From positions 1-64,000 of the forward strand of contig NZ_FONL01000006.1 of assembly GCF_900112895.1 (NCBI RefSeq): a stretch of DNA of 64,000 nucleotides, given 5' to 3'. Position numbers and translations under genes: made by a program. Below are positions 2,963 through 22,749 of the stretch, one piece after another. Each line of letters starts with the position of its first letter. Positions within the stretch are counted from its first letter, which is position 1. This stretch comes from Succiniclasticum ruminis DSM 9236. Lineage in GTDB: Bacteria; Bacillota; Negativicutes; Acidaminococcales; Acidaminococcaceae. The notes below the pieces were generated by a model, which ran no database searches, was not told the origin of the DNA, and saw nothing but the letters and a program-made list of their open reading frames with translations.

Positions 2963-3028
2963 TTGGAATCTCCTCTCTCTGCATAATTTATAGTTTAAAA
3001 TTTATAATAAACGAAATCATAAAAGTCA

Positions 3029-3076: not shown

Positions 3077-3085
3077 CAATGTATG

Positions 3086-3298
3086 TCAGTACATGATCCT
3101 CCGTGCCATGGATTCGTCCAGTGCCACGCGGGAATCGCGTACCTGCAGGATCATGTTTCCGCCCATACGGGTGACGACGGTGATCTTGCTGCCGACGGTG
3201 AAGCCCATTTCCGCCAGGTGCAGGCGGGTGGCATCGTTGCCGGTGATTTTTTTGATTTCCAAAACTTCGCCTTCCTGAGCGGTGGGAAGTGGTAACAT
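3086..3298 (-). CDS. feoA: FeoA domain protein (first gene of feo operon)
   Basis: The 70-residue FeoA-like protein has the family pattern GEVLEIKKITGNDATRLHLAEMGFTVGS, followed by GGNMILQVRDSRVALDESMA. As the first gene of the operon it follows an AGGAGG ribosome site and a leader containing one of the TTAG-N6-CTAA inverted repeats (3330-3345), 32 to 47 nt upstream of the start codon. It differs clearly in sequence from the second FeoA, so the two are not a recent tandem duplication. Confidence 0.95.
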   Translation of the reverse strand: MLPLPTAQEGEVLEIKKITGNDATRLHLAEMGFTVGSKITVVTRMGGNMILQVRDSRVALDESMARRIMY

Positions 3299-3329
3299 GG
3301 TGAGAGCCTCCTCGTATAATTACGAATGA

Positions 3330-3345
3330 GTTAGAGATTGCTAAC
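3330..3345. promoter_or_regulatory. Operator copy 1, GTTAG-N6-CTAAC
   Basis: GTTAG (3330-3334) and CTAAC (3341-3345) form a perfect inverted repeat with a 6-nt centre. It lies just upstream of the feo start codon and just downstream of a possible minus-strand -10 (TATGAT, complement of 3351-3356). The TTAG-N6-CTAA core fits inside the known DtxR/IdeR box. Binding by a DtxR-family metal repressor is inferred. Confidence 0.55.
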
Positions 3346-3450
3346 CACATATCATACTAAATCCTGCATTTTGAAGCATTTAAGATGCTTGCAAATTTAG
3401 AATAATCCCTCAGAAGAGATGTTAAAAATAATGAACGATTTGCAAACAAA

Positions 3451-3466
3451 ATTAGCTAATGCTAAC
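3451..3466. promoter_or_regulatory. Operator copy 2, ATTAG-N6-CTAAC
   Basis: ATTAG (3451-3455) and CTAAC (3462-3466) with a 6-nt centre; the inner TTAGC-TAAT-GCTAA is a perfect palindrome. It has the same layout as copies 1 and 3 and lies between the feo operon and the divergent DUF362 gene. Confidence 0.5.
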
Positions 3467-3514
3467 TCATAGGTAAAATATTTGCCCCGGCCTAACTGAC
3501 GGGGAGAACAATCC

Positions 3515-3530
3515 GTTAGCCGAGACTAAC
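3515..3530. promoter_or_regulatory. Operator copy 3, GTTAG-N6-CTAAC
   Basis: GTTAG (3515-3519), a 6-nt centre and CTAAC (3526-3530). The arms are identical to copy 1. Extra half-sites (ctaact) occur at 3492-3497 and 3565-3570, so the region appears to be densely occupied by one regulator. Confidence 0.5.
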
Positions 3531-3599
3531 CAAATATTACACCAACTGAAGAAGTTTGTCAAGGCTAACTGAGATGCGGCTTGAAAATTAAAATAGTTC

Positions 3600-3630
3600 T
3601 TGACATAGAGTTAACTTTAGCAGGTATAAT
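3600..3630 (+). promoter_or_regulatory. Promoter of the DUF362 gene
   Basis: TTGACA (3600-3605) and TATAAT (3625-3630) are perfect consensus hexamers separated by 19 nt, longer than the optimal 17. A long spacer with consensus boxes often marks a promoter that depends on an activator or on a DNA-distorting metalloregulator. The spacer contains gttaac, similar to half of the feo operators. Confidence 0.6.
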
Positions 3631-3767
3631 AAACGTAAAAATAGGAAACTCTGCGAAGCCTGTTTATAAAACAGATTACGCATGTGGACAAGACATGCAG
3701 AAAATGAAAAAAGAATAGATAGAAAAACAAACATATGAACAGAGTTTTTGAAAAGGGAGGAAGCATC

Positions 3768-4892
3768 ATGGAAAAATCAAAGGTGTTTTTTACGGATTTC
3801 CGGGTACAGGTGGGCGTAAGCCTGCTGCAGAAACTGAAAACACTCTGCCTTGTGGCAGGTATTAAGAAGATTGATATGGAAGGCAAGTTTGTCGCTATCA
3901 AAATGCATTTCGGCGAACTGGGCAATATGGCGTTCCTGCGTCCCCAGTACGCGAAGGTGGTTGCCGATCTGGTAAAGGAACAGGGCGGGATTCCCTTCCT
4001 GACAGACTGCAATACTCTCTATCCCGGCAGCCGCCGGCATGCGCCGGAGCATATGGACTGCGCGAACCTGAACGGTTTCAATCCCACCACAACCGGCTGC
4101 CAGATTATTATTGCTGACGGTCTGCGGGGCACGGACGAAACAGAGGTTCCGGTTAAGAACGGTGTGTACGTGGAAAAAGCGAAAATCGGACGCGCTATCA
4201 TGGATGCGGACGTGTTTATCAGTCTGGCCCATTTTAAAGGACATGAAATGACGGGGTTCGGCGGGGCGCTGAAGAATATCGGCATGGGCAGCGGCAGCCG
4301 GGCCGGTAAAATGGAACAGCATTCTTCCGGGAAATGCGTCGTGGATGAAGCTTTGTGCCGGGGCTGCCGCCGCTGCGCCAAGGAATGCGGCTCCAATGCT
4401 ATCACCTATGAAAACAACAAGGCCCATATCGACAAGAATATCTGCAAGGGCTGCGGCCGCTGCATCGGCGCCTGCACCTTCAACGCCATTAGCAACGACG
4501 AATGGGACGCCGGCGACAAACTGGACTGCAAAATGGCAGAATATGCCCAGGCCGTGTGCCAGGACCGTCCCTGCTTCCATATCAATCTGGCCATGGATAT
4601 TTCCCCCAACTGCGACTGTCATGGCGATAACGACGCAGCGATTCTGCCCAACATCGGCATGTTCGCGTCCTTTGACCCGGTAGCTTTGGACCAGGCCTGC
4701 GTGGATGCCTGCCAGAAAGCGGCGCCCATGCCTAACAGCCAGCTCAGCGACAATCTGGCGAAACCGGACTGGAAGCACTATCACGATCACTTCATGGACA
4801 GCAATCCTCATGTGCATTGGAAAGAAACCTTGGAACACGCGGAAAAAATTGGCATGGGGACAAGGGAATACGAACTGATTAAAGTGAAATAA
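3768..4892 (+). CDS. DUF362 domain protein with two 4Fe-4S ferredoxin motifs
   Basis: The 374-residue product has a DUF362 N-terminal part (about 1-190), then a bacterial ferredoxin pair with clusters CRGCRRCAKEC and CKGCGRCIGAC (about 190-245). It ends in a second DUF362-like part rich in Cys and His. DUF362/ferredoxin proteins are common in anaerobes; their substrate is not known and an electron-transfer role is inferred. The start at 3768 is preferred over an in-frame ATG at 3735 because GGGAGG lies 7 nt ahead. It is a single gene with its own promoter and a terminator at 5008-5050. Confidence 0.9.
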   Translation: MEKSKVFFTDFRVQVGVSLLQKLKTLCLVAGIKKIDMEGKFVAIKMHFGELGNMAFLRPQYAKVVADLVKEQGGIPFLTDCNTLYPGSRRHAPEHMDCANLNGFNPTTTGCQIIIADGLRGTDETEVPVKNGVYVEKAKIGRAIMDADVFISLAHFKGHEMTGFGGALKNIGMGSGSRAGKMEQHSSGKCVVDEALCRGCRRCAKECGSNAITYENNKAHIDKNICKGCGRCIGACTFNAISNDEWDAGDKLDCKMAEYAQAVCQDRPCFHINLAMDISPNCDCHGDNDAAILPNIGMFASFDPVALDQACVDACQKAAPMPNSQLSDNLAKPDWKHYHDHFMDSNPHVHWKETLEHAEKIGMGTREYELIKVK

Positions 4893-5007
4893 ACCGCCTT
4901 TTTGATAATGACAGAGGTTGACGGAGTTTTTACGTAACAAGTAACTGTTACACAGAGGCAATAGTCTATAATAATTATAAGTTTGCTGTAACGTTCTTTT
5001 ATAACGA

Positions 5008-5050
5008 AACGGTCCCGATATCCATTATAGTATCGGGACCGTTAGTTTTT
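5008..5050 (+). terminator. Intrinsic terminator after the DUF362 gene
   Basis: aacggtcccgata (5008-5020) pairs perfectly with tatcgggaccgtt (5031-5043), followed by a T-run (5045-5050). It sits between convergent genes, but the U-tract is clearly on the plus strand. Confidence 0.85.
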
Positions 5051-5091
5051 TATAACGTCATAAGATTGAGAAGAAAACCCAGATAACGGTT

Positions 5092-5865
5092 TTATTTGAT
5101 ATAGTCTTTTTCATATTGCGCGAGAGTGCCGTTGCCTTTTAATTCTGCCAGCCAGAAGTTCACAAAATTCAGGAAATCTTGGTCTCCTTTCTGCATCAGC
5201 ACACCAAAGGTGTTTTTGGTGAACGGATCTTTCAGCAGCGGTGCAGCCAGCTTGTCATTGACTGCGGCGTAATGAGCAGCTTCTGTTGTTTCCGTTACCA
5301 TAACATCAGCTTTTCCTTCTGCAATCAGCCCGGGGATTTCGGCATTTTGCGGATGCATCACCAACGTTGCGTTTGCCAGGCTGGCTTTCGCAAATTTTTC
5401 ATTGGTGCCGCCGGGGTTATACATTACTTTTACGCCAGGCTTATTAATATCTGCCAGAGATTTGAATTTCCCTGCGTCAGCTTTGCGTACCAGTATTGTT
5501 TTACCGAACTGCAGGTAGCCATCGGACATGTTCATGACTTTTTCACGGGCAAAGGTGCGCGTGATACCGCATAGGGCAACATCAAACTTCCCGTCTATCG
5601 TGTCCTGGGTAAGTGTTTTCCAGGTGGTCGGGATGTAAACCGCTTTAACGCCCAGTGCGGCGGCCAGGTTTTCTGCCAGTTGGTAATCAAAGCCTTCATA
5701 CTGTCCGGTGTCCTTATTTAAATAGGACATAGGTTTATAATCTCCGGTAGTTCCAACCAGCAGAGTGCCTCGGCTGGCTATGGCCTCCAGTTTTCCGGCT
5801 GCCAGCGCAGAGCAGGAAATCAGGAGCATTGTCAGGGTCAATAATAGGTAACCAAGTTTTTTCAT
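5092..5865 (-). CDS. Periplasmic solute-binding-fold protein, cyclohexadienyl dehydratase (PheC)-like
   Basis: The 257-residue exported protein of the amino-acid-binding (SBP family 3) fold has an N-terminal signal sequence ending near ALA (residues 20-23), with LISC as a possible lipobox. Several stretches (GTTGDYKPMSYLN near residue 38, NPGGTNEKFA near 150, ADVMVTETTEA near 188) resemble periplasmic cyclohexadienyl dehydratase PheC, which converts prephenate or arogenate. No permease or ATPase gene is next to it, which also fits an enzyme rather than a transporter subunit. An amino-acid-binding role cannot be excluded. Single gene, minus strand, with AGGAGG before the start. Confidence 0.75.
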   Translation of the reverse strand: MKKLGYLLLTLTMLLISCSALAAGKLEAIASRGTLLVGTTGDYKPMSYLNKDTGQYEGFDYQLAENLAAALGVKAVYIPTTWKTLTQDTIDGKFDVALCGITRTFAREKVMNMSDGYLQFGKTILVRKADAGKFKSLADINKPGVKVMYNPGGTNEKFAKASLANATLVMHPQNAEIPGLIAEGKADVMVTETTEAAHYAAVNDKLAAPLLKDPFTKNTFGVLMQKGDQDFLNFVNFWLAELKGNGTLAQYEKDYIK

Positions 5866-6240
5866 AAGATACCTCCTTCATAAATCATCAAAATCCGGAA
5901 TCCTAAATAATGAACACTGTCGAAACAGGTTTCATTACAATGAGGCGTCCCTTTCAATTTATTCTAAACAACATTTCTGAAGAATTCAAGAAAAAGGATG
6001 TTATTTTTTGTTTTTTTAAATAAAGTTTTTGTAATAAATGAGACAAAGAAATAACGGTTTTCCGAGCGTATGACTGACATCTTCAGGCTTGTATTCAGTT
6101 TTATGAATGCTCTGTAAAAACTTACCATAGGAACTTGATTTTTCATTACTTTTCTGCCATGCTATAAGTACAGTTCAGATAATACTGTTGAAAGCAAGCT
6201 GTTTTATGATAAATGTAAAGACAGGAAAGGAAATACTAAT
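5866..6240. other. AT-rich intergenic region, no gene seen
   Basis: A 375-nt region lies between the divergent PheC-like and ArsC-like genes. It must hold both promoters, but I see no convincing consensus pair, riboswitch or strong hairpin. The short minus-strand reading frame near 5964-6146 is low-complexity Phe/Lys/Asn translation of AT-rich DNA and is not called as a gene. Confidence 0.5.
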
Positions 6241-6594
6241 ATGCTGACAGTGTATTGTTATAGTAAATGTTCAACCTGCAAAAAGGCACTGAAATGGCTT
6301 GATGAAAAGAAAATTGAACATGAAGTCATTGATATTAAGGAAGACCATCCGGACGAAGGTACGCTACGGAAATATTATGCGGTCAGCGGATTGCCTCTAA
6401 AACGCTTTTTTAATACCAGCGGTATGCAATACCGTAACATGGATTTGTCGAAAAAGCTGCCGGACATGAGTGAAGACGATCAGCTCCGCCTTCTGGCAAG
6501 TGACGGGATGCTGGTAAAGCGTCCGCTTCTTGTGGGAAAAGATTTTGTGCTGGCTGGCTTCAAACAGGCAGAATGGGAAGAAAAGCTGATGTAA
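6241..6594 (+). CDS. ArsC/Spx/MgsR family thioredoxin-fold protein
   Basis: The 117-residue protein opens with a CSTC redox motif (residues 10-13: YSKCSTCKKAL) and shows the conserved RPLLVG...GF ending of the ArsC/YffB/Spx family. Family members are arsenate reductases or, as Spx, regulators of RNA polymerase. The CxxC motif is shared by Spx and YffB. No ars genes are nearby, so arsenate reduction is not supported by context. It is followed 28 nt later by the FAH-family gene, probably in one transcript. Confidence 0.88.
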   Translation: MLTVYCYSKCSTCKKALKWLDEKKIEHEVIDIKEDHPDEGTLRKYYAVSGLPLKRFFNTSGMQYRNMDLSKKLPDMSEDDQLRLLASDGMLVKRPLLVGKDFVLAGFKQAEWEEKLM

Positions 6595-10153: not shown

Positions 10154-12331
10154 TTGAAACTGGATATCAGGCGCAAAGTTTTGTTATTGGTGCTTTCCGG
10201 CAGTCTTCTGACCTTTTTGCTGGTTACAGTTTTTTTATCTTTCGGACTGTATCATGCAAGGGCAACATTTGACAAAAAGAATGAAGAACTGGGCGAAGAG
10301 GTTGCCGGATACGCGGAAGATCTGGTAGAAACGCAGATTAAAAAACGCATGGAAGAGGTTACCCGTTTTCGGGCGCAGCACATTGAACACGGGCTCATGG
10401 GAACTGCCGCAAACGTACAATATCTTGCCGGAACTATGAATGCTTTTTTGAAGAATGACGTACAATCCGCCGGGGATTCTCTTCCCAATGCATTATATAC
10501 CGAAGTTCCTGTCGGCAAACCTTTTATTCATTACAGCCCGGCTCTGGTAAAGCAGGGGATTTCACCGGCGTTGCAGAGAGAAATCAACCTGACTTCCGGA
10601 ATTGCCGGCTCGTTGCTGCGTATGAATAATTATTGCGATTTTTATCCGAATGTCTTTCTGGCTTCCAAAAACGGATATTCGATCCGGGTACAGCAGAAAG
10701 AGCCGGTGGAAAAAATATCGTTTCTTTGTACAGAGCCGCTCCGGCATACCTACGATGCCCGGGAATGGGATTGGTATAAGCAGGGTAAAGACGCCTCCGG
10801 TCCAGTTTTTTCGGACAGCTATAATGACTCTGGGACAGGAGAAATCTGCGTTTCCTGTGTGGTTCCCTATTTTGGCCCGGAGGGATTCGCCGGTGTGCTC
10901 GGCATTGACTGCAGTATCCAAGATTTGTATGGAGACATCAGGGAAACTGCAATTAGCAGTACGGAACAATCTTTTGTACTGGGGAAAAAAGGAGAGATTA
11001 TCATTTCTTCAAAAACTGACGGAATTCTGTCAGCTTCCATTGACCGTCAGGATTTGCGAAACTCGGCAGAGAGCAGTATCGCTAGTGAAGCGGCTAACAT
11101 GATAGCAGGGAAAGCAGATATGAAGCCGGTTACGGTTGACGGAAAAGAGTACTACCTGGCGTATGCGCCAATCCGATCCGTGGGCTGGAGCTTTGGCACA
11201 TTAATCGCAAAGGAAGAAACACTGCTGCCGGCCACAAAAGCCCAGAGCGACGTGCGAGGCTGGATGGAAGATTTTAGAAAAACCATGCGGGGACAGTTTG
11301 TTTTTTGGGCAGCTGTGCTGGCTGTTGCCATGGCTTTGCTGTTGGCCGGGTTGATCCTATTCAGCACATGGTCGGCGAAACGGTTTGTAAAGCCAATTCT
11401 GGACCTGGAAGATGGCGTAAAACAGATAGCCCATGGAAATCTGGATAAAACGCTGTCCCTGCAAACCGGTGATGAGATTGAACGTCTGGCGGACAGCGTA
11501 AACAACATGACCGCTGACCTGAAAACATATATTGCGGATCTCTCCAGAGCCACAGCGGAAAACGAACGTATCGTTACAGAATTGTCGGTTGCCCGGAACA
11601 TCCAGGAGGGGATGCTGCCCAAAACCTTCCCTGCATTTCCGGATATAAAGGAATTTGATATTTACGCATCAATGCAGGCGGCTAAACACGTAGGTGGCGA
11701 CTTTTACGATTTCTATCTGGTGGATGAAGACCATCTGGCCGTGACCATTGGGGATGTGTCCGGAAAAGGGGTGCCCGCTGCGCTGTTCATGGTCGTTGCC
11801 AAGACCGTGCTGCAAAACAACATGCTTCTTTTGAAAAAAGCGGAGGCGCTGGGTGAAGTGATGGCCCGGGCCAACGACCGGATCTGCCGGGATAACGAAG
11901 AAGATATGTTTGTAACCGTGTTCATGGGGTTGCTGGATATCCGGAGCGGTGAGTTCTGCTATGTGAATGCAGGACATAACCGTCCGCTGCTGCGTTGCGG
12001 CACAGACCGATTTGCCTGGCTGCCCAAGGCGGATACCTGTATGATAGGCATAATGGAAGGCCTGGAGTTCCCGGTCCGGAAGCTGCAGCTGAACCCGGGT
12101 GACTGCCTGTTCTTATATACCGACGGCGTGACGGAAGCCATGGATCCGGAAGGCAACCTGTTTACAGACGGAAAACTGAAAGACCTGCTGGGGACAGTTC
12201 CCGGGGAGATGGAGACAAAAGACATCCTGACCCTGGTTTCCCAGGCGGTGAAAGCCCATGCGGAAGAAGCGGAACAGTCTGACGACGTGACCATGCTGGG
12301 ACTTTTGTACAGGGGACAGGAAAAACAATGA
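10154..12331 (+). CDS. Membrane Cache-HAMP-PP2C phosphatase (SpoIIE/RsbU type), copy 1
   Basis: The 725-residue sensor phosphatase has TM1 about 8-32, an extracytoplasmic double Cache domain about 35-375, TM2 about 380-403, HAMP about 404-460, a coiled linker, and a SpoIIE-type PP2C domain from about 490. PP2C metal motifs are intact: GGDFYDF (514), GDVSGKGVPAALF, YTDGVTEA and SDDVTML (708). Such enzymes dephosphorylate a serine on STAS-domain antagonists, so the STAS proteins downstream are the expected substrates. The Cache ligand is unknown. The start is TTG at 10154 behind GGAGGT. A paralog with the same architecture ends the block at 22603. Confidence 0.95.
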   Translation: MKLDIRRKVLLLVLSGSLLTFLLVTVFLSFGLYHARATFDKKNEELGEEVAGYAEDLVETQIKKRMEEVTRFRAQHIEHGLMGTAANVQYLAGTMNAFLKNDVQSAGDSLPNALYTEVPVGKPFIHYSPALVKQGISPALQREINLTSGIAGSLLRMNNYCDFYPNVFLASKNGYSIRVQQKEPVEKISFLCTEPLRHTYDAREWDWYKQGKDASGPVFSDSYNDSGTGEICVSCVVPYFGPEGFAGVLGIDCSIQDLYGDIRETAISSTEQSFVLGKKGEIIISSKTDGILSASIDRQDLRNSAESSIASEAANMIAGKADMKPVTVDGKEYYLAYAPIRSVGWSFGTLIAKEETLLPATKAQSDVRGWMEDFRKTMRGQFVFWAAVLAVAMALLLAGLILFSTWSAKRFVKPILDLEDGVKQIAHGNLDKTLSLQTGDEIERLADSVNNMTADLKTYIADLSRATAENERIVTELSVARNIQEGMLPKTFPAFPDIKEFDIYASMQAAKHVGGDFYDFYLVDEDHLAVTIGDVSGKGVPAALFMVVAKTVLQNNMLLLKKAEALGEVMARANDRICRDNEEDMFVTVFMGLLDIRSGEFCYVNAGHNRPLLRCGTDRFAWLPKADTCMIGIMEGLEFPVRKLQLNPGDCLFLYTDGVTEAMDPEGNLFTDGKLKDLLGTVPGEMETKDILTLVSQAVKAHAEEAEQSDDVTMLGLLYRGQEKQ

Positions 12332-12446
12332 TTCCGGATGCAAGTGTTTGAAAAATATGTTAAAATATTATGATAGGCTTTATAAATGAGATACGTATTC
12401 AACACCCGGTCAGACCGGGCGACTAAAAATGAGGGGATGAATTCAA

Positions 12447-14036
12447 ATGGCATTGACAATTACTTCTGTTACGGAAGGAACTACGGTTACACTCACGATT
12501 GCCGGCAGGTTAAGCGCGCTGGAAACGGCTGAGTTTGACGCTGCGCTTACCGAAAAGACGCAGGGGATGAAACAGGCGCTGCTGGATTTTTCCAATGTGG
12601 AATACATTGCGTCGGCAGGCTTGCGTGCCCTGTTCAGGGCGAATAAAAATATGGTCCGGCAGGGTGGCGAAATGAAGCTGCTGTATCCCTCCGAAGAAGT
12701 GGCGGAGGTTTTGCAGGCTACCCGGTTTGACAACCTGATAAAAATCGTCTGGCGGGAGGCGGAAGATAACTTTTCCCGGTTGTATCCCCTCCGTCCCATC
12801 CAGCGTTGGCTGGTGGACACCCATTTTATGAAAGCAAAGTCCACCATGATGAATACAGGCGCCCTGGTCCGGCTGGATCCGGCTGTTGATATGGAGAGGC
12901 TGGCGGCGGCTTTAAATGATGTGCTTGCGTCGTATGATATTTTCCGCTGCCGTCTGGTGATCCACCCGGAAACGGGGGATATCTGCCAGCGTTTTGACGG
13001 AGAAATTACCAAGGTTGTGGTGGAGACCCTCTCGGACGAAGCGTTTGAACAGCGGAAGCAGGAGATTAAGCAACCGTATGACCTGATTGACCATCCTCTG
13101 TACAGGATTTACCTTATGGTCACATCCACGGCAAAGTATTTGTATGCGGATTTTTATCATGCCATTATGGACGGCACTTCGATTGCCCTGCTGTTCTACC
13201 GGGAATTGGATAAACGGTACGTTCATCCCGAACGGGGCGGTAAGGCCGGGCGTCAGCCTGCCAGTTATGCCGAATATATCCGGGAGGAAGCGAATATTCC
13301 TCAGGCGGAACTGCAGGCGGGGCATGACTACTGGACCCAAATGCTGGCGGGTTTTGACGAAAACCGGCATCTGCCTCCTGCGGATATAGACGGGGCAAGC
13401 AATACGCCGGAGCACGAAATAGAAGTTCCGCTCCCGGTGATAGAAAAAGACTTTTTCAAAGAGAAGGAGTTTAACGAGAATACATTTTTCCTGGGAGCCT
13501 CGTTGCTGGCCCTGGCCAAATCCTCGGGAAGCCGGGAAGCCATTATGAGCTGGGTACATACCGGCCGGGTGACGATGGCGGAAAAGCGCCTCATGGGCCT
13601 GATGCTGGACCAGTTCCCCATCCGCTGGGATTTTAACGAAGATATTACGGCAGACGCGTTCCTGCGGGGGCTGGAAGCCAGGGTCAACGAAAGCATGCAG
13701 TACCGCAAGAGCCTGGACATGGTTTACCTGAACGGGATGGAAGATGAGTGCGCAACCTTTATTCTGCAAAAAGGAATGATGGGGCGCAAGGGCATAGTAA
13801 AAATAGGCGGCACAGATGGCGTTATGGTGGATATGCCCGCCAATGAAATCTCGGCGGCGGAAAATACGCTGGACATTGAAATGGACGCCCATGATGATGG
13901 AACATTCTCCCTGGTGCTGGATTATGACAACAATCGGTACAGCGAGGCAGCCATGCAACGGTTTGCAACGATTATGAAAGAGATGGTCGTCACCCTGCAG
14001 GACGGGGACCATGTGGTAACGGAACTGCTGAAATAG
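12447..14036 (+). CDS. STAS domain fused to an NRPS-type condensation domain
   Basis: The 529-residue product has two parts. Residues 1-105 form a STAS (anti-sigma factor antagonist) domain with the phospho-acceptor region VEYIASAGLR, Ser56 being the likely target. Residues about 112-529 form a condensation/acyltransferase-like domain, starting YPLRPIQRWL and holding the active-site motif HAIMDG (His238, Asp242, Gly243); the first His of the HHxxxDG consensus is Tyr. I know no common protein with this fusion. It lies 115 nt behind the phosphatase and 47 nt before the NRPS gene. I infer that phosphorylation of the STAS part switches the condensation enzyme or its contact with a kinase. Confidence 0.85.
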   Translation: MALTITSVTEGTTVTLTIAGRLSALETAEFDAALTEKTQGMKQALLDFSNVEYIASAGLRALFRANKNMVRQGGEMKLLYPSEEVAEVLQATRFDNLIKIVWREAEDNFSRLYPLRPIQRWLVDTHFMKAKSTMMNTGALVRLDPAVDMERLAAALNDVLASYDIFRCRLVIHPETGDICQRFDGEITKVVVETLSDEAFEQRKQEIKQPYDLIDHPLYRIYLMVTSTAKYLYADFYHAIMDGTSIALLFYRELDKRYVHPERGGKAGRQPASYAEYIREEANIPQAELQAGHDYWTQMLAGFDENRHLPPADIDGASNTPEHEIEVPLPVIEKDFFKEKEFNENTFFLGASLLALAKSSGSREAIMSWVHTGRVTMAEKRLMGLMLDQFPIRWDFNEDITADAFLRGLEARVNESMQYRKSLDMVYLNGMEDECATFILQKGMMGRKGIVKIGGTDGVMVDMPANEISAAENTLDIEMDAHDDGTFSLVLDYDNNRYSEAAMQRFATIMKEMVVTLQDGDHVVTELLK

Positions 14037-14083
14037 GCAGGCTTTCCGGCATGGGTAACGATATAAGAAAGGGTTTATAACAT

Positions 14084-17000
14084 ATGGATAAGCAGGAATG
14101 GTGTACTACACACTTCGGCTCGGAGCTGCCGGATTGTCTGCCTCTTCCCGAGTTGCGGGAAACAGTGGGCGGAACCTGGAGCCGGTTTTCGCTTCCCCTG
14201 GATACACGTCCGGAAGCGGCCGAACTGGCTGCAACGGTGTTATACTTGCTGGGTGTATACGGCGGACTGAACGAAGCCGGTTTTCTGGTGTGGAATGGAG
14301 ACGGCTGTCAGCCGCTGCGGCAGGAATGGAAGCCGGATATGACGCCCGGTCAGCTGACGGAACTGGCAAAGAGCCAGCTGCAGGAAGGCGGAGCCTTTTC
14401 CTGGGATGAAGGCGAAGCAACCGAACTCCTGGGAGTGGAAGCAGGACGGCGTGTGGCCGTTTCCCTGACCGGGGAGATTCCCCCGGCACAGTGTGAAGGA
14501 CTGGCGCTGGCGTTTTGCCTTGCGCCCCGGGGGCTTGTCATTTCCTACGACAATTCGCTGTATACAGAGCCCTTTATCCGGGTAATGGCTCTTTCCTGGC
14601 GGGAAATCATCGTGAGTTTTTCCTCTGCCGAAACGCTGGCCGGTGTTTGCATTACGGCAGAAGAAACCAGGAAAGTTCTGGACCGTTTTAATGAGACGGT
14701 CCATGCTTATGATAAAGCAGCTACCATCATTGAGCAGTTCTGTGCCAGGGCTGCGGAATATCCGGACAACATGGCGGTGACTTACGAAGAGAAGGCTTAC
14801 ACCTATGCCCGGACGCAGGATCTGGCATTCCGGCTGGCTGGCTATGTGTCCCGGCAGGGATTGGGCCGCGGGGATGTGGTGGCGGTATTCATCCCCCGTT
14901 CCGAATATATGGTGATTGCGTCCCTGGGCGTCATGCGGGCGGGATGCGCCTATGAACCCCTGGACCCGAACTATCCGGATGAACGCCTGTCCTTTATGGT
15001 GAAAGACGCCGGGGCCCGGCTTATTATTGTTTCGGATGAACTGCTGCCGCGGCTGCAGAATTTTACAGAATTTAACGGAACGGTCCTGCGGGTGTCGGAG
15101 ATTTCCTCCCTGCCGCTGCCGGATGCCGCTGCGATGGCGGAGATACAGGCGCCGAAGCAGGACGATCTGTTTATGCTGATCTACACTTCCGGTACTACCG
15201 GCGTGCCCAAAGGGGTTCGCCTGTTACAGAAGAATCTCATGGCCTATGCAGCCTGGTACCGGCGTTATTTTGCGCCTACAGAGAAATATCGCGTAACCTG
15301 TTACAACAGCTATGGTTTTGACGGATCCCTGGCGGATATGTATCCGGCCCTTACGGTGGGCGCCGGCATCGTTGTCATTCCCGAAGAGAAAAAGCTGGAC
15401 CTGCCGGCTCTGGCGGAAATTATAAATAAACATCATGTTGTGGTGGCGGACCTGCCGGCCCAGGTAGGGCGCCAGTTTGCCCTGACCATGGACTGTCCGG
15501 AACTGAAATACATTGTGGTAGGCGGGGAAACGCTGGTACCCTTTAAGCCGGTGCATCCGTATATTGTGGCCAATGAATACGGACCCACGGAAGCTACGGT
15601 TTCCATTACCTGTTATAATATGACGAAGTACGAGCCGGATATTCCCATCGGCACGCCCATGGATAATACGGCTATTTACATGGTAGACAATTGCGGGCGG
15701 CGTGTGCCTCCCGGCGCCCTGGGAGAGCTTTGGGTAGCAGGGATCCAGGTGGCAGGCGGGTATCTGAACCGGCCGGAAAAGACAAAAGAAGCGTTTGTGC
15801 CCAATCCGTTTTCGCAGGAACGCGAATATGAAACGGCGTATCGCACAGGAGACATGGCCCGTTACCGTCTGGACGGGAACATTGAGTTTATCGGCCGGCG
15901 GGACGGCCTGGTGAAAATTCGCGGGTTCCGGGTGGAACTGGCGGAAGTGGAAGGGGTCGTACACGATTTCCCTGCCGTGAAAAATGCAGCGGTGGTGGCC
16001 TGCGATAATCCGGCAGGAGGGAAGTTCATCGCGGCCTATGTAGTGGCGGATGAACCCATCGACCGGCAAGCCCTGGCGGCCTTTATCCGGGAACGGAAAC
16101 CGCCCTACATGGTACCGGCGGCGATCGTACAGCTGGATGCCATTCCCCGGAACCAGAACGGCAAATTAGACCGGCGGGCTTTGCCCAAACCGGAAGTCTA
16201 CGTGACCGAAACGCCGTATGTAGCGCCCCGTAACGAAACGGAAGCAGCACTGGCCAGAGGCTTTGCCGTGGCCTTAGGCATGGAAAAGGTCAGCGCGGAA
16301 GAAGACTTTTTCGCGGCCGGGGGCGACAGCCTCAGCGTGGTGCGGCTGTTAGCCGAATGCCGGAACCTGAAGCTGAACTTTAATCTGGTCTATGAAGGCA
16401 AGACGCCTATCGGTATTGCCAACCTGTTGGCACAGCGGGAAGCGCAGGAGCAGAACCGCGTGGTCCACAGGGAGACCCATTTCTTCGGCCCCCTGCAGGA
16501 GTTGCACTATGAGTGGGGCAACGATCTGGAAGAAGGCTATGGCCTGCACTGCGACGCCCATGTATATCTGGCGCCGGAAACGGATATGGAACGCCTGGCG
16601 CTTGCCATCGAAAAGACGCTGCTGGCCCATCCCTCCGTCGATGCCCGGTTGACTGCCACTGCCGGCGGAACCCTTCGCTGGCGGCCCGGCGACCTGCAGA
16701 ATCTGAAACCTGCCGTTGAGACGATCACCCGGCAGGAATACGAAGAATTAAAACCGCACCTGCGCCAGTCCATGAACCGTCCCGAGACCCGCATGTTCGT
16801 CATGCGTCTCTTTGCCATTGCCGAAGCGGACGGAACTGTGATGAAAGAGTTTTATTTTGACTTCCTCCATCCCATCATCGACGGCGACTCCATCAACATC
16901 TTCCTGGAAGACGTGGATGCCGCCTACCGGGGTGAGGAACCGGCAACGGAAGAGTACAGCATCTTTGATTATTATGACCGGATCGAGGATACCGTGGAAA

Positions 17001-17719
17001 CACCGGCGTACCAAAAGGAACAGCAGTGGAATGCTGATTTTGTACGGTCCTTTACGGCACGGGCCGGCGAACTTACAGGGGATCTGGATCCCGGTGAGGA
17101 AAACGTCACAAAAGATATGATGGTGCCGCTGCATGTGGACCTGGCGAAGGTGGATGCCTTTACCAGAGCCAACGGCGTTACGGACGGATCCATCCTGGCG
17201 GCCGCCTTCGGCCTTTTGCAGAGCCTGGCCAATGGGGAGCAGGCTTCCGCCGTACTGACCATATATAACGGCCGGGACGATATCCGTTATGAACGGACCA
17301 TGGGTGCGATTTACCGGCATTACCCGCTCTGCACCCGCTGGCAGGCGGATTTGACGGCGTCCCGGTTTGTGAAGGAAACCCAGGAGAATATTCTCCTGTG
17401 CCGCCGCCATGCGCTTTATGAAGGGGACTGTGTGCCTCTTATCGCAGCGTTCTCGTATCAGGGCGAAGATATAGAGGACGAGTTTACCTTCTGCGGCGGC
17501 CCGTCCCGCTACGAAGAAATCGAAGATTATGAAGACGAGGTGTTTGATTTCTTCCTGCATCGCCGCAACGATGATTTCTATGTGAACCTGACGTATAATA
17601 CCTTAGCTTACAGCGAAGCGTTCGTAGACCGGTTCCTGAAAAATTATGCGGCTGCGATACACGGTCTGGCAGCGGGCAAAACGATTGGAGAAATCGTGAA
17701 GGAGATTCTGCGTGGATAA
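14084..17719 (+). CDS. Nonribosomal peptide synthetase, partial C - A - PCP - C
   Basis: The 1211-residue synthetase begins with residues 1-200, which resemble only the C-terminal lobe of a condensation domain. An adenylation domain follows (about 205-705) with LIYTSGTTGVPKGV (365-378), NEYGPTEA (497-504), YRTGD (586-590) and NGKLDRRALP with the catalytic Lys694. A carrier domain has GGDSL and the pantetheine Ser749. A C-terminal condensation domain has HPIIDG (929-934). No thioesterase or reductase is present. Aligning by hand to GrsA gives specificity residues D413, G414, A417, D456, V478, G480, E498 and V506, a code I cannot assign. It overlaps the next gene by 8 nt, so the two are translationally coupled. 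Confidence 0.92.
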   Translation: MDKQEWCTTHFGSELPDCLPLPELRETVGGTWSRFSLPLDTRPEAAELAATVLYLLGVYGGLNEAGFLVWNGDGCQPLRQEWKPDMTPGQLTELAKSQLQEGGAFSWDEGEATELLGVEAGRRVAVSLTGEIPPAQCEGLALAFCLAPRGLVISYDNSLYTEPFIRVMALSWREIIVSFSSAETLAGVCITAEETRKVLDRFNETVHAYDKAATIIEQFCARAAEYPDNMAVTYEEKAYTYARTQDLAFRLAGYVSRQGLGRGDVVAVFIPRSEYMVIASLGVMRAGCAYEPLDPNYPDERLSFMVKDAGARLIIVSDELLPRLQNFTEFNGTVLRVSEISSLPLPDAAAMAEIQAPKQDDLFMLIYTSGTTGVPKGVRLLQKNLMAYAAWYRRYFAPTEKYRVTCYNSYGFDGSLADMYPALTVGAGIVVIPEEKKLDLPALAEIINKHHVVVADLPAQVGRQFALTMDCPELKYIVVGGETLVPFKPVHPYIVANEYGPTEATVSITCYNMTKYEPDIPIGTPMDNTAIYMVDNCGRRVPPGALGELWVAGIQVAGGYLNRPEKTKEAFVPNPFSQEREYETAYRTGDMARYRLDGNIEFIGRRDGLVKIRGFRVELAEVEGVVHDFPAVKNAAVVACDNPAGGKFIAAYVVADEPIDRQALAAFIRERKPPYMVPAAIVQLDAIPRNQNGKLDRRALPKPEVYVTETPYVAPRNETEAALARGFAVALGMEKVSAEEDFFAAGGDSLSVVRLLAECRNLKLNFNLVYEGKTPIGIANLLAQREAQEQNRVVHRETHFFGPLQELHYEWGNDLEEGYGLHCDAHVYLAPETDMERLALAIEKTLLAHPSVDARLTATAGGTLRWRPGDLQNLKPAVETITRQEYEELKPHLRQSMNRPETRMFVMRLFAIAEADGTVMKEFYFDFLHPIIDGDSINIFLEDVDAAYRGEEPATEEYSIFDYYDRIEDTVETPAYQKEQQWNADFVRSFTARAGELTGDLDPGEENVTKDMMVPLHVDLAKVDAFTRANGVTDGSILAAAFGLLQSLANGEQASAVLTIYNGRDDIRYERTMGAIYRHYPLCTRWQADLTASRFVKETQENILLCRRHALYEGDCVPLIAAFSYQGEDIEDEFTFCGGPSRYEEIEDYEDEVFDFFLHRRNDDFYVNLTYNTLAYSEAFVDRFLKNYAAAIHGLAAGKTIGEIVKEILRG

Positions 17720-19475
17720 AACAGTAGATTATGCGTATTTTACCCGTAAAATGTTTATACGCTCGGTCCTGCCGGCTCCCCTGGCAGGTATCGGGCTGGC
17801 CCTGGCGGAGATCGGCGACACGATTCTGGTAGGCCATGCCATCGGCATGGACGGCCTGGCGGCCATCGGCTTCATTTCCCCCCTGTTCCTGCTGGCGGCC
17901 TTCCTTGTGTTCGGGCTTTCCATGGGCGGGGCCGTTGTGTACAGCAACCTGATGCATGAGGGAAAAAAGGAAGAGGCCCTGGGCATCTTCAATTATTTCC
18001 TGCGGATCAGCGCGGTCATCGGCTTCGGTATCCTGGCAGGAGGTGTTCTGTTTGAAAATGAGCTGCTGTCTTTTCTGGGCACCCATCCGGATGACGGCGC
18101 GGTGTACCAGATGGCGAAAAGCTATCTCTTTTATATCCTGCTGGGTATTCCGTTTGAGATTTTGATGGAAGTACTGACTGCCTACCTGCGAAATGACGGG
18201 GAGGATACATTCTCCACGGTGGTCCAGACTGCCACCGGGGTAGGTAACCTGATCATCAGCGCCCTCCTGCTGCTGTTCTTTGACTGGGGCATCGCCGGCT
18301 GCAGCTTCGGCTTCTTTATTTCCAACGCGGTGGCGGTGCTGGTCTCCGTGGGATTACTCGCTACGCGCTCCGAGGGCCAGCTGGCGCTGCAAAGACATGC
18401 CGCCTCTTTCAAGGAGGCGCTCAAAGGGCTGAGGCTCGGTTTCTCTACTTCGTCCGAATATATTTTTGACGCCATCTTTTCGCTGGTGGTGATCCGTCTG
18501 CTGTCGGATATGGCCGGTACGGACGGCGTGGCGGTGTTCAGTATTATTGAAAACCTTTCGGTGCTCTTTATCTTTTTATATGAATTCATCGGCAAGACTT
18601 CCCAACCGTTTTTCTCCATGTTTTTTGCCGAATGCAATTTTAAGGAGCTCCACCGTTTTTTCCGGTACGCGCTGGGTTATGCGCTGGTTGTAGGCACCCT
18701 TTCCATGCTGCTGATCATGGTCTGGCCCCAAATCCTTGACCTGCTCTTCGGTCTGGAGGACATAAAGGATGCAAATCAAGCCTATTATGCGGCCCGGGTC
18801 TTCTGCGCAGGTTCCATCTTTATGGGCGTAGCCCTGGTGCTGCAGAATTACCTGCAATCGGAGGAGGACGAGAAATCGGCTTTTCTGGTGGTGTTCATGC
18901 GGCGTCTGGGCGCCAGCCTGCCGATTGCCCTTGTGCTGGCAGAGTACGGTTATTATGTGTTCTGGCTGGTGTATCCGCTTTCAGAGATTGTTACGCTGGT
19001 GGTGCTTTATTTCTACAAGCGCATACAGGGAGAACGGCATGTCATCGATTCCACCCGGGTCTATAATGCGTCCTTTTTGGGCCGGGTGCAGGATGTGGCC
19101 GAGCAACTGGATGCGGTGGAACAGTTTGCCCTGTCCTGGGGAGCTGATGCACACTGCTGTAACTCCCTGCGTCTGGCTATGGAGGAAATCTGCGGTGTGA
19201 TGAACGAGCGGGCCGGATCCATGAAAGGCGACGAGCCGGTACTAGCCCAGATTACCGTAATCGCGCAGGAAGACGGAACCTTCAAGCTCCATCTCCGGGA
19301 CAATGCCAGGGAACTGAATCCCTTCCAGCTTTCTGACAAGGCGCTGCAAGTCCTGCCGGAACAGTCGGAAGACATAGACGAAAGGGCTCTGGTTCTGCAT
19401 GCGGTGAAAACCCACGTCCGTCAGTATCTGTACCGCAACTACCACGGGTTCAATACCATCACGGTGACCGTGTGA
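17712..19475 (+). CDS. MATE family exporter fused to a degenerate GHKL (RsbW-like) ATPase domain
   Basis: The 587-residue product starts with GTG inside the end of the NRPS gene (GTGGATAA overlap). Residues 1-430 are a polytopic MATE transporter. Residues about 445-587 are soluble and resemble anti-sigma-factor kinases: an N-box-like LRLAMEEICGVMNE and a G1-like DNARELNPF. The glycine-rich G2 motif is not recognisable, so ATP binding is doubtful. The tail could dock a STAS protein and couple export to the switch. Export of the NRPS product is inferred from the tight overlap. The MATE assignment is firm; the tail assignment is moderate. Confidence 0.87.
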   Translation: MDKTVDYAYFTRKMFIRSVLPAPLAGIGLALAEIGDTILVGHAIGMDGLAAIGFISPLFLLAAFLVFGLSMGGAVVYSNLMHEGKKEEALGIFNYFLRISAVIGFGILAGGVLFENELLSFLGTHPDDGAVYQMAKSYLFYILLGIPFEILMEVLTAYLRNDGEDTFSTVVQTATGVGNLIISALLLLFFDWGIAGCSFGFFISNAVAVLVSVGLLATRSEGQLALQRHAASFKEALKGLRLGFSTSSEYIFDAIFSLVVIRLLSDMAGTDGVAVFSIIENLSVLFIFLYEFIGKTSQPFFSMFFAECNFKELHRFFRYALGYALVVGTLSMLLIMVWPQILDLLFGLEDIKDANQAYYAARVFCAGSIFMGVALVLQNYLQSEEDEKSAFLVVFMRRLGASLPIALVLAEYGYYVFWLVYPLSEIVTLVVLYFYKRIQGERHVIDSTRVYNASFLGRVQDVAEQLDAVEQFALSWGADAHCCNSLRLAMEEICGVMNERAGSMKGDEPVLAQITVIAQEDGTFKLHLRDNARELNPFQLSDKALQVLPEQSEDIDERALVLHAVKTHVRQYLYRNYHGFNTITVTV

Positions 19476-19528
19476 GACTGATAATAACAGTTGATAATAA
19501 TTGTGATTATATTTAAGGAGAGACGATT

Positions 19529-19864
19529 ATGGCTAAAGAATTCCTGCAGAAAGAAAGTACCGGACCTAACGGTTGGACCATCTGGAGCGTAAGCGGACGA
19601 ATTGATATGGTGACGGCGGACGCGGCTTACACTACGGGGGAAGACATTGTACTGCGCAATGTGAAGACGGTACTGGATATGACGGATATGGAATATCTTT
19701 CCAGCGCAGGGTTAAGGGTTTTGCTGCGCCTGAACAAGCTGGCAAAGAAAAATGGCAAGGTGTTTACCCTGACAGCGCCTTCCGGCATTGTAAAATCGGT
19801 TTTGGAAGACAGTGGCATGGATGCGTTGTTTACAATATATGCCTCCCTGGAAGAGCTGGACTGA
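19529..19864 (+). CDS. STAS domain anti-sigma factor antagonist (RsbV/SpoIIAA type)
   Basis: The 111-residue single STAS domain carries the phospho-acceptor region MEYLSSAGLRVLL, Ser59 being the expected target. It would be phosphorylated by the adjacent GHKL kinase and dephosphorylated by the PP2C enzymes at either end of the block. GGAGAG lies just ahead of the ATG. It stands 53 nt behind the MATE fusion and 15 nt before the kinase gene. A Fur-box-like sequence lies at 19492-19506. Confidence 0.94.
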   Translation: MAKEFLQKESTGPNGWTIWSVSGRIDMVTADAAYTTGEDIVLRNVKTVLDMTDMEYLSSAGLRVLLRLNKLAKKNGKVFTLTAPSGIVKSVLEDSGMDALFTIYASLEELD

Positions 19865-19879
19865 CGGAGGTGCTGTCTT

Positions 19880-20314
19880 ATGGCAGGCGCAAAAAACGGA
19901 AGCTGGCAGCGATACGAAGCCAACATGAAGTGGTATGAACATATCCGGGAAGACGTGCTGGACGCTGCGGAAGAAGCCGGCGTATCGCCACGGCAGCAAC
20001 TGAAGCTGGAGCTTGGCTTTGAAGAAATTCTGGTGAATATTATTTCTTATGCCTATGACGATCCGGGCTTTGTCTGGGTAAAAACAGAGGAAGAGAGCGA
20101 TTGTTTCCGAATAGAGTTTGCAGATCACGGAAAGCCTTTCGACCCACTGGAAAAAGACTACCGTCCATTGGAAGATATTCCCTTGGACGAGAGAAAGCCG
20201 GGAGGCTACGGAATTTTCCTGGTAAAGAAGAATTTCAAATTGGCAGAATACAAGTATGAAAAACTGTTTGGACAGATGGCTAATCATTTGTCCCTGTTGC
20301 TGGATAAGGAATAA
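19880..20314 (+). CDS. GHKL-type serine kinase / anti-sigma factor (RsbW/SpoIIAB-like)
   Basis: The 144-residue ATP-binding protein of the HATPase_c_2 family has N-box GFEEILVNIISYAY (Glu49, Asn53), G1 box ADHGKPFDPL and G2 box KPGGYGIFLVKK. All nucleotide-binding motifs are present, so it is probably an active STAS-serine kinase. In classical systems such a kinase also binds a sigma factor; none is encoded here. It lies 15 nt behind the STAS gene, the usual antagonist-kinase order. Confidence 0.93.
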   Translation: MAGAKNGSWQRYEANMKWYEHIREDVLDAAEEAGVSPRQQLKLELGFEEILVNIISYAYDDPGFVWVKTEEESDCFRIEFADHGKPFDPLEKDYRPLEDIPLDERKPGGYGIFLVKKNFKLAEYKYEKLFGQMANHLSLLLDKE

Positions 20315-20392
20315 AAAGGATGCCGGGTAAGCATGTTTGTGCGTTGAAAGGCAGGCAAACGAACCGGCGGCTTAAAATCTGGAGTGTGTATC

Positions 20393-22603
20393 TTGAAATT
20401 TGGCAAGCAAAACATGAGCCTGCATCACAGGATATTCCTGTTGCTGCTGGCAGTGGGACTGGCGTCTTTTATTATTGCGGGAGCCGTTTCTCTGGCAGGC
20501 ATGTATGCGATTCGGGAAAATATAGATAAAACCGGTGCTCTTCTGGCCGATAATACGGCTTCCTTTACGGAAAGTTTTGCCGGAGAGCAGGTTAAGAAAC
20601 GCCTGTCCTCCGATGCTTTCGCCAAAGCGCAGCTGATCCGGCATGAAATGCAGACTACGTTGGACGATACCCGCTATCTTGCCGACCGGATGACCAAGAT
20701 GCTGAAAAACCCGGAGTATTTTAAAGGACGCCGCCTGCCGGATCCCCATCATGAGGTAATCCCTTCCGGCAAGGCCTATGTTAATTTCAGCCGGGAACTG
20801 GAGCGGCAGTACGGGACAGGGGCTTTTGCTGAGGAAATCGGTCTGGTTTCCAATATCGCGGACGACCTGGAACTGATGCCGGAATGGTATACCGCAGCCT
20901 TTGCTGGCTCTGTTCACGGTTATCTCATCGCCATGGATGTGACGCCGGACAAGTCTGCCAAGCATTTCAGCCAGGCGTTTCTGGATAGCTATGACCCACG
21001 GAAGATGGGTTGGTACAGGCTGGCGGCAGACAGTAACAAATCTGGTTTTACCGGTCTATATACCGATTCCAACGGCAATCGCTGTCTGACCTGTGTAGCC
21101 CCCTATTACGATGCCGCAGGACTGGCAGGTGTAGTCGGCATTGACTGTAACCCCGAAACCCTGTTCCGCCTGACAGATAATGCGGGTACCGGGGATAAGG
21201 ACGATCAGGACCAGGATGCCATAAAAGCTGAACAGCCCAGATTTTTGTTGGACAATGCTACCGGCAGCGTTATTTTCTCAACTTTTAAGGATGGCCCGTT
21301 GGCGGCTCCGCAAAGTGCTACAGATCTGCGCCAAAGTCCGGAAAAAAGTATTGCCAGGGCTGCCTCTGCCATGGTGGCAGGAAAAAAGGATGTAATGCTG
21401 ATTACATTGGGCGACGATGATTATTTCCTGGCTTTTGCCCCCGTGGAAAAGCCAGGCTGGAGTTATGGCGTTCTGAATCACAAACGTGCAGTGGTATATC
21501 CTGCCGCGTATGCCAGGGATAATGTACTTTCCCAAATGGAAGCCTTTGCCGGCACGCTGCACGATGCCTTCCGCTCTGGTCTGCGCTGGGCGCTTCTGAT
21601 ATTTTTGCTCATGCTTGTGCCTCTGTTCTTTGTCAGTTCTGAGGTAGCCAAACGTTTTGTGAGCCCCATCCTGACGCTGATCGATGGCGTGAAGCGTATT
21701 GCCCAGGGAAATCTGGATGAGAAAGTAGACGTCCACCGGACCGATGAACTGGCTTTGCTGGCAGACAGCGTCAATGATATGGCCGGTGATCTGAAGAAAC
21801 ATATACAGACACTTTCCAAAGTTACCGCAGAAAAGGAACGGATTGCTACCGAACTTTCCGTAGCTACGGATATTCAGGAAGGAATGTTGCCGCGAAATTT
21901 TGGGGAGATTGCCCAAAACAAAGGCTTTGACCTGTTTGCTACGATGGCTGCGGCGAAAGAGGTGGGCGGCGACTTTTACGATTTTTATATGCTGGATGAC
22001 CACCGGCTGGTCATTACCATTGCCGATGTGTCCGGAAAAGGAGTTCCCGCCGCGCTCTTTATGGTCATTGCAAAGACGATTCTGAAAAATTCAGCGTCAT
22101 CCATCGGGGAATCGGAAGATTTTGCGGAAGTGATCCGGCGCACAAACCGGCAGTTGTGTGAGAACAACGAAGAGATGCTCTTTGTTACGGCGTTCTTTGG
22201 TGTCCTCGATACCCGTACCGGCGGTTTTACCTATGTGAACTGCGGCCATAACCCGCCGCTGCTGCGGCAGGGTATGGACGGAATGTTTACGTACCTGCGC
22301 CCTGCAAAGAAGAACCTGATGCTGGGCGTGGAAGAGGATATCAGCTTTGACCAGGAAACGCTGCAGATGTCTCCCGGTTCGCTGCTGTTCTGCTATACAG
22401 ACGGCGTGACAGAAGCTATGAACGTTGCGGGCGAAATGTATTCGGAAGAACGTTTGCAGGCGGTCCTTACGGGCATACCGACCGGAAACGACATACCGGT
22501 TGCGGATATACTGGCTGAATTGCGGAAAGATATTGACGCCCATGTGGGCGCAGCGGAGCAATCCGACGATATGACCATGCTGGCGATTCGTTACAGAGGA
22601 TAA
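20393..22603 (+). CDS. Membrane Cache-HAMP-PP2C phosphatase (SpoIIE/RsbU type), copy 2
   Basis: The 736-residue paralog of the phosphatase at 10154 has TM1 about 8-30, an extracytoplasmic double Cache domain, TM2 about 398-420, HAMP, and a PP2C domain with GGDFYDF (about 525), ADVSGKGVPAALF, YTDGVTEA and SDDMTML. The cytoplasmic halves of the two paralogs are very alike while the sensor halves have diverged, so they probably answer different ligands. I chose TTG at 20393, matching the TTG start of the paralog, with GGAG 9 nt ahead; a GTG at 20384 is an alternative. It is the last gene of the block, followed by a terminator. Confidence 0.94.
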   Translation: MKFGKQNMSLHHRIFLLLLAVGLASFIIAGAVSLAGMYAIRENIDKTGALLADNTASFTESFAGEQVKKRLSSDAFAKAQLIRHEMQTTLDDTRYLADRMTKMLKNPEYFKGRRLPDPHHEVIPSGKAYVNFSRELERQYGTGAFAEEIGLVSNIADDLELMPEWYTAAFAGSVHGYLIAMDVTPDKSAKHFSQAFLDSYDPRKMGWYRLAADSNKSGFTGLYTDSNGNRCLTCVAPYYDAAGLAGVVGIDCNPETLFRLTDNAGTGDKDDQDQDAIKAEQPRFLLDNATGSVIFSTFKDGPLAAPQSATDLRQSPEKSIARAASAMVAGKKDVMLITLGDDDYFLAFAPVEKPGWSYGVLNHKRAVVYPAAYARDNVLSQMEAFAGTLHDAFRSGLRWALLIFLLMLVPLFFVSSEVAKRFVSPILTLIDGVKRIAQGNLDEKVDVHRTDELALLADSVNDMAGDLKKHIQTLSKVTAEKERIATELSVATDIQEGMLPRNFGEIAQNKGFDLFATMAAAKEVGGDFYDFYMLDDHRLVITIADVSGKGVPAALFMVIAKTILKNSASSIGESEDFAEVIRRTNRQLCENNEEMLFVTAFFGVLDTRTGGFTYVNCGHNPPLLRQGMDGMFTYLRPAKKNLMLGVEEDISFDQETLQMSPGSLLFCYTDGVTEAMNVAGEMYSEERLQAVLTGIPTGNDIPVADILAELRKDIDAHVGAAEQSDDMTMLAIRYRG

Positions 22604-22707
22604 ACAGAAACCTGCTTTTGATGAGCCAGCGCGGGCGTTTCTGTATGTATTTCAGGTGTAAATGACGTTTAGAATACATAATGTAATCAGTGTTCCTTAA
22701 GAGCAGA

Positions 22708-22749
22708 CAGCGACAGAGAAAGTTAGTGAAACTTCTCTGTCGCTGTTTT
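22708..22749 (+). terminator. Intrinsic terminator closing the NRPS/partner-switch block
   Basis: cagcgacagagaa (22708-22720) pairs perfectly with ttctctgtcgctg (22733-22745), followed by tttta. It is the first strong terminator on the plus strand after 7552, so genes from about 8762 or 10154 to 22603 may share transcripts. Confidence 0.85.

Follow-up and report, generated by a model that had tools for sequence, protein, structure and literature searches.

A seven-gene block in the window (the whole 64,000-nucleotide stretch of Succiniclasticum ruminis DSM 9236 DNA analysed here) encodes the parts of a partner switch together with a small-molecule synthetase and an exporter. On balance, we favour the reading that the synthetase and exporter, and not a sigma factor, are the output of this switch, the dephosphorylated STAS-enzyme docking on a pseudo-RsbW tail of the exporter. 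We infer that production and export may be controlled post-translationally. In the proposed mechanism, the free kinase would phosphorylate Ser56 of the STAS-condensation fusion (STAS-C) and Ser59 of the free STAS protein. A ligand would activate the Cache phosphatases, and the STAS domains would be dephosphorylated. Unphosphorylated STAS would then bind the pseudo-RsbW tail, which would stand in place of the sigma factor or second partner of classical switches. The condensation enzyme, and the A-T-C synthetase with it, would be docked onto the exporter, and synthesis and export would be turned on together. The free STAS protein would compete for the kinase and the tail, and a threshold would be set in this way.

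Partner switching is mainly viewed as a means of releasing sigma factors. If the docking model is true, the synthesis of a secreted small molecule would be coupled directly, and in a ligand-gated manner, to its export, and this coupling would recur with many enzymes in rumen and gut bacteria.

Composition of the block

The ORF check placed seven genes on the + strand of 10154-22603, at the coordinates first given for them, and the domains claimed for their products were recovered by Pfam (Table 1). Intergenic gaps are at most about 115 bases, and the NRPS and MATE genes overlap by 8 bases. The block is flanked upstream by dinB-like and purple-acid-phosphatase-like genes and downstream by gltB. 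The single terminator described after the block was located as a hairpin with a 17-18-bp stem and a short T run (−52.5 kcal/mol for 161 nt of the region, z −4.0); it was missed by a consensus terminator scan because the T run is short. Pfam analysis of all seven ORFs detected no sigma factor and no DNA-binding protein in the block, in agreement with the preliminary description. The same analysis bore out the complete parts list of a partner switch, in which the biosynthesis and export proteins carry fused STAS and RsbW-like domains.

Table 1. Features of the block and the evidence used to assign them.
Feature	Position	Strand	Evidence
PhA, membrane sensor phosphatase dCache-HAMP-SpoIIE (PP2C), 725 aa	10154..12331	+	Pfam, motifs
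STAS-condensation fusion (STAS-C), 529 aa	12447..14036	+	Pfam, alignments, AlphaFold
NRPS A-T-C, 1211 aa	14084..17719	+	Pfam, motifs
MATE exporter with C-terminal GHKL (RsbW-like) pseudokinase tail, 587 aa	17712..19475	+	Pfam, model
Pseudo-RsbW tail, residues 446-587 of the MATE protein	19047..19472	+	motifs, hhalign
Free STAS protein, 111 aa	19529..19864	+	Pfam
Free RsbW-like serine kinase (predicted), 144 aa	19880..20314	+	Pfam, motifs
PhB, membrane sensor phosphatase Cache-like-HAMP-SpoIIE, 739 aa	20384..22603	+	Pfam, motifs
Intrinsic terminator hairpin closing the block	22707-22746	+	sequence, RNA fold

PhA and PhB are likely sensors through their membrane Cache domains, a role that had been proposed for them and that their dCache or Cache-like, HAMP and SpoIIE domains support. 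PhA matched dCache (75.8 bits), HAMP and SpoIIE (E 5e-46). Its start codon is TTG, preceded by GGAGGTG, and all its catalytic motifs are present (GGDFYDF, DVSGKG, TDGV and SDDVT). PhB matched SpoIIE and HAMP, with dCache at 44.0 bits, just short of the cut-off of 45, and its PP2C catalytic motifs are intact. Both proteins thus carry the catalytic Asp motifs of SpoIIE-family PP2C. SpoIIE-type phosphatases are confined to the block in this 2.54-Mb, 98%-complete genome; a third SpoIIE match was rejected as a partner-switch phosphatase, being a PP2C of the Stp1/PrpC type.

STAS-C matched the Pfam STAS (53 bits) and Condensation (147 bits) models. Its predicted phospho-acceptor is Ser56 (YIASAGL) and its predicted catalytic residue is His238 (DFYHAIMDG); the predicted phospho-acceptor of the free STAS protein is Ser59 (YLSSAGL). 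In each, the Ser stands two residues before a Gly, and Ser was found at this site in 36/36 rows of the STAS alignment, B. subtilis SpoIIAA among them. DFYHAIMDG was unchanged across 27 sequences. The AlphaFold model of STAS-C had a pLDDT of 85, with a low-confidence linker at residues 104-110. Its condensation fold was matched to Txo2, TycC and others in a fold search, which, with the Pfam score and the HxxxDG motif, identifies an NRPS condensation domain. The only two STAS domains of the genome are both in the block. The closest named relative, the rumen MAG RUG140, has a STAS-C 93% identical to that of the window, and orthologues were found from goat, reindeer and other ruminants.

The N-terminus of the NRPS has about 195 residues without a Pfam match. 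Its A-domain code, which we take to be DGADVGEVS from alignment to the PheA specificity positions, recurs with little or no change in homologues from Acidaminococcaceae and Selenomonas, and, to judge from its acidic residues at 278 and 322, the substrate may be a cationic amino acid. The carrier motif (GGDSL) is intact, as are the HxxxDG motifs of both condensation domains; that of the NRPS (HPIIDG) was also found in NRPS homologues. Although an NRPS is encoded, a single phosphopantetheinyl transferase, of the ACPS family (L203), was found in the genome, so it is not certain that the carrier domain is activated.

The MATE protein matched the Pfam MATE model (85 bits), and its C-terminal part scored 19.9 bits with HATPase_c_2, under the cut-off of 27.4; the S. 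ruminantium orthologue scored 31.2 bits. In the AlphaFold model (pLDDT 86, pTM 0.80), residues 10-448 matched the MATE structure 6fhz (Z 41), and fold and Pfam match together identify a member of the MATE exporter family. Fold searches with this model returned only MATE/MurJ/WzxE folds and matched no solved GHKL structure to the tail, because the transporter part of the model occupies the list. The tail was assigned to GHKL from Pfam matches in orthologues, hhalign and predicted topology.

The preliminary description had called this tail RsbW-like. The relationship held, hhalign of the tail against the free kinases giving a probability of 95.7; kinase-like activity did not, the full set of ATP motifs being found in 0/54 MATE tails (Asn kept in 10/54, intact G2 in 0/54). 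In the window's MATE protein, the N box has kept its Glu but not its Asn, and the Gly of G1 and the glycines of G2 are missing; the ATP-binding motifs (N-box Asn, DxG, GxG) are therefore not conserved. The E/N, DxG and GGxG motifs were intact in 26/26 RsbW-like domains that are free (22) or fused to PP2C (4). An apparent ‘free’ kinase with lost motifs (L191_2890) was discarded, being a MATE tail severed by a contig end. In the tree, a branch supported at 100/99 separated 46/46 MATE tails from every kinase, and the clade of the window's tail nested inside Lachnospiraceae tails. The tail dN/dS was 0.15-0.19, i.e. purifying selection. Since it is under purifying selection and has lost its ATP motifs, the tail is constrained but probably not catalytic, and is thus probably a pseudokinase.

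The free kinase scored 54.6 bits with HATPase_c_2, and its N, G1 and G2 boxes are intact, as in RsbW-like kinases. A phmmer search (E up to 1) gave no solved structure resembling it. HATPase_c_2 domains were found in the genome only in this kinase and in the MATE tail, both in the block, and only the kinase looks active.

Conservation and exchange of the cassette

A check of co-conservation in the Negativicutes, proposed in the preliminary description, was run and the core order was found to be kept across two families. Acidaminococcaceae and Selenomonas ruminantium (Selenomonadaceae) share the gene order phosphatase, (STAS), STAS-C, A-T-C NRPS, MATE-tail (loci L034-L036, L038-L042, L045, L049 and L078). 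Of 300 Negativicutes genomes, 15 gave strong matches to STAS-C (E < 1e-200), and these were precisely the 15 with strong matches to the tail (E < 1e-50). Because the order is kept in two families and the tail and STAS-C occur in the same genomes, the block is beyond chance. Locus L038, on a contig labelled Fretibacterium (Synergistota), has the core of the cassette, in which the NRPS is shortened, through transfer or misbinning; being a single 11-kb MAG contig, possibly misbinned, it was left out as evidence of spread to Synergistota. No plasmid-borne MATE-tail or STAS-C was found, the plasmid matches being plain MATEs and ordinary condensation domains only.

Quinella-like relatives have a condensation enzyme and a MATE, without STAS fusion or adjacent switch genes. 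Their stand-alone condensation proteins (L054-L091) often adjoin a MATE with a decayed tail, and two or three copies occur in tandem at L055 and L058. Two sets of neighbouring genes appeared unrelated and were set aside: AcrB, DUF6056 and LeuA, which lie upstream of the STAS-C/MATE pairs in S. ruminantium, and an ABC transporter with permeases and pyruvate kinase, which surround the condensation/MATE pairs of Quinella. At L095:1450-2427, an ECF-like sigma gene is followed by a 115-aa ORF ending GGTCNLEGTSCWTLSS, which resembles the precursor of a ribosomal peptide, its leader being of the double-glycine type.

Relative to L034, dS was 0.07-0.25 over the stretch that starts with the PP2C half of PhA and ends with the MATE tail. 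Within PhA, it was 1.08 for the Cache half and 0.10 for the PP2C half; for the free STAS, the free kinase and PhB, it was 1.21, 1.15 and 0.36-0.69, respectively. Identity to L034 rises near 11.6 kb and falls near 19.4 kb. This dS contrast and the identity steps indicate that a cassette was recently exchanged between lineages, with a breakpoint within the sensor phosphatase PhA. Judged from these comparisons, the block is an exchangeable cassette (PhA to MATE-tail) and a STAS/kinase/phosphatase module able to reside elsewhere.

Three genomes (G118, G142 and G228) have the STAS-kinase unit at separate loci (L139-L141). In the sister genome G146, the STAS, kinase and PhB genes are intact at the same dinB...gltB position, without the cassette, and a remnant of 96 bp from the 5′ end of PhA (L142:4789-4884) is joined to the STAS gene region. 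This remnant is a deletion scar, indicating that the cassette was deleted there. Since the STAS-kinase-PhB module was kept after this loss, it may have another output. An intact free kinase was found, in the block or elsewhere, in 7/7 genomes of the genus with the cassette; in the seven without it, the kinase was absent from four, present in two and represented in one only by a contig-edge fragment. As the cassette itself encodes no intact kinase and all seven cassette genomes have one, a kinase in trans is probably needed. The block had been described as one circuit: the complete parts do adjoin, but they are not indivisible, in view of the dS differences, the separate loci and the retention of the module alone in G146.

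Other readings and known partner switches

In a first alternative, which we regard as unlikely, the free kinase would act as anti-sigma factor on an alternative sigma whose gene lies outside the block, with the NRPS genes being members of its regulon or simply neighbours. Such an arrangement would suit a STAS-kinase-PhB trio that is a separate unit in relatives and outlives the cassette deletion in G146. Besides RpoD, a SigH and an ECF-like factor, the genome also encodes a candidate, a 211-aa sigma-70 factor with FliA/WhiG/SigBFG-like matches. However, this protein scored far under every SigB/F/G and FliA/WhiG cut-off, and it was found in 14/14 genomes of the genus, including four without an RsbW-type kinase, so that it is not an obligate partner of the kinase. 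Moreover, the block encodes no sigma factor, the enzyme and exporter fusions would be left unexplained, and a like gene set adjoins an NRPS in an archaeon (see below).

It also seems quite improbable that the block holds two adjacent but separate systems, the cassette (PhA, STAS-C, NRPS, MATE-tail) on one side and a STAS-kinase-PhB unit regulating something else on the other. The difference in dS between cassette (0.07-0.25) and module (0.36-1.2), the identity steps, the separate loci and the G146 arrangement described above are all consistent with such a division. Nevertheless, the cassette has no kinase of its own and an intact one accompanies it in every cassette genome of the genus, and other MATE-tail operons encode their own intact kinase. 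A constitutive scaffold, in which STAS would dock the carrier or the tail whatever its phosphorylation, by analogy with the partner contacts made by STAS in SLC26/SulP transporters, and the phosphatases would act elsewhere, is very unlikely: the tail is catalytically dead by its motifs and STAS domains are known in transporters (SLC26/SulP; review PMC8256260), but the phospho-acceptor Ser is invariant in the STAS alignment and PP2C genes with intact motifs adjoin the STAS-enzyme genes.

The output proposed here, a synthetase and an exporter, was compared with known systems. With RsbU-RsbV-RsbW and SpoIIE-SpoIIAA-SpoIIAB, the block shares a SpoIIE-family PP2C, a phospho-Ser STAS and a HATPase_c_2 kinase; it differs in having no sigma factor in the locus, a STAS domain on an enzyme and an extra, dead RsbW on an exporter. 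As no cognate sigma factor is encoded in the block, it was classed as working like a partner switch and not as sigma-directed.

In Methanobrevibacter ruminantium M1, NRPS loci are found at mru0066-0071 and mru0513-0516 (Leahy et al. 2010, PMC2812497). Two serine phosphatases lie around the NRPS mru0068, together with a MatE protein and an anti-sigma factor antagonist, and a further cluster elsewhere has a STAS protein, a phosphatase and an RsbW-like kinase; sensing of the environment and control of NRPS expression were proposed (PMC2812497). An NRPS neighbouring serine phosphatases, STAS and MatE is thus common to these loci and the block, whereas STAS-condensation or MATE-GHKL fusions are not mentioned in the portion of the description used for comparison (PMC2812497). 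The statement that no described system has this make-up was therefore too strong, since a gene set of this kind beside an NRPS was already reported in 2010 (PMC2812497). In a literature search with few subscription-journal papers within reach, Leahy et al. (2010) was the only close precedent. The association of the gene set with an NRPS is not new. To our knowledge, archaea have no sigma factors, so the presence of a like gene set in an archaeon favours a non-sigma output. The docking model, if true, could account for the RsbV/RsbW-type genes beside NRPS loci in this sigma-less archaeon.

HsbA of Pseudomonas aeruginosa (HsbR-HsbA-HsbD) binds the diguanylate cyclase HsbD (PMC5085249), and SypA of Vibrio fischeri (SypE-SypA) is a STAS protein with an output possibly other than a sigma factor (PMC8256260). 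In both, the STAS output is or may be non-sigma, as proposed here; unlike here, the outputs relate to c-di-GMP or biofilm and there is no synthetase or exporter fusion. SLC26/SulP are likewise transporters with a domain of the anti-sigma system, but they carry STAS, whereas the MATE protein carries the RsbW-like half. The OaaC fatty-acid-amide enzymes of gut Clostridia (PMC13142362) are also compact, stand-alone condensation enzymes of an NRPS-like pathway; here the enzyme is fused to STAS and paired with an amino-acid A-T-C NRPS. The motif (D/H)HxxxDS/A is found in most OaaC members, whereas YHAIMDG is invariant here, which is weak evidence of a difference, as Gly occurs in 17% of the OaaC family (PMC13142362). 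The related systems as a set suggest an amide-type conjugate as product.

Tailed exporters and STAS fusions in other loci

Since L034-L091 were found with the STAS-C query, adjacency of condensation genes was not counted there, and the adjacency argument was based on L188-L201, found with the tail model. A tail-only search of 299 Lachnospiraceae genomes gave eight strong MATE-tail loci (L188-L195). Neighbouring genes encode a SpoIIE phosphatase in 8/8, an intact free kinase in 5/8 and a STAS protein in 4/8, and the enzymes accompanying these exporters are GNAT, formyltransferase-like or LPG_synthase_C-like proteins. No NRPS was seen adjoining these eight loci. Further Selenomonas MATE-tail operons (L131-L134, L146) contain a phosphatase, an intact kinase and a GNAT or condensation protein. 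STAS fused to an APH-like kinase domain lies directly beside a MATE-tail at L196:3087-4262 and L200:7260-8465. The docking model rests mainly on this repeated association between an enzyme tagged with STAS and an exporter tagged with GHKL.

Other arrangements were also found. At L175, a STAS-LPG_synthase_C fusion is adjoined by a short MATE and an NRPS. The MATE-tail of G267 (L135) adjoins APH and GT2-GH3 genes, without switch genes, and no switch genes are near the MATE-tails of L197 and L198. In a Lachnospiraceae STAS-C cluster (L174), the MATE has no tail. This untailed MATE and the Quinella-like loci without STAS fusion indicate that the tail-STAS pair is not indispensable. An independent Lachnospiraceae operon (L177) encodes STAS, a C-A-T-reductase NRPS, PP2C and RsbW; it resembles the block in uniting partner-switch genes and an NRPS in one operon, and differs in having neither MATE nor fusions.

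We tentatively suggest, with somewhat less than even confidence, that these loci belong to a class of partner switches of gut and rumen Firmicutes, and perhaps of methanogens, in which a dead anti-sigma copy on a MATE docks a STAS-tagged enzyme and ligand-driven dephosphorylation assembles a synthetase-exporter complex. In such a class, one chassis would carry varied enzymes (condensation, LPG-synthase-like, GNAT, formyltransferase-like and APH-like). If the docking model is true, the MATE-GHKL tail would be a marker for locating uncharacterised secreted metabolites.

Three minor observations were made in these searches. A third STAS-APH-like fusion was found at L172:4122-5309. A 635-aa condensation protein (L131:6464-8371), from an operon that also has a MATE-tail, a phosphatase, a kinase and STAS, gave a weak cyclic-nucleotide-binding match, below the cut-off. 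At L192, ORFs of 1260 and 1465 aa (12220-16002 and 1857-6254, respectively), without Pfam match, lie near a MATE-tail/STAS/PP2C/RsbW operon.
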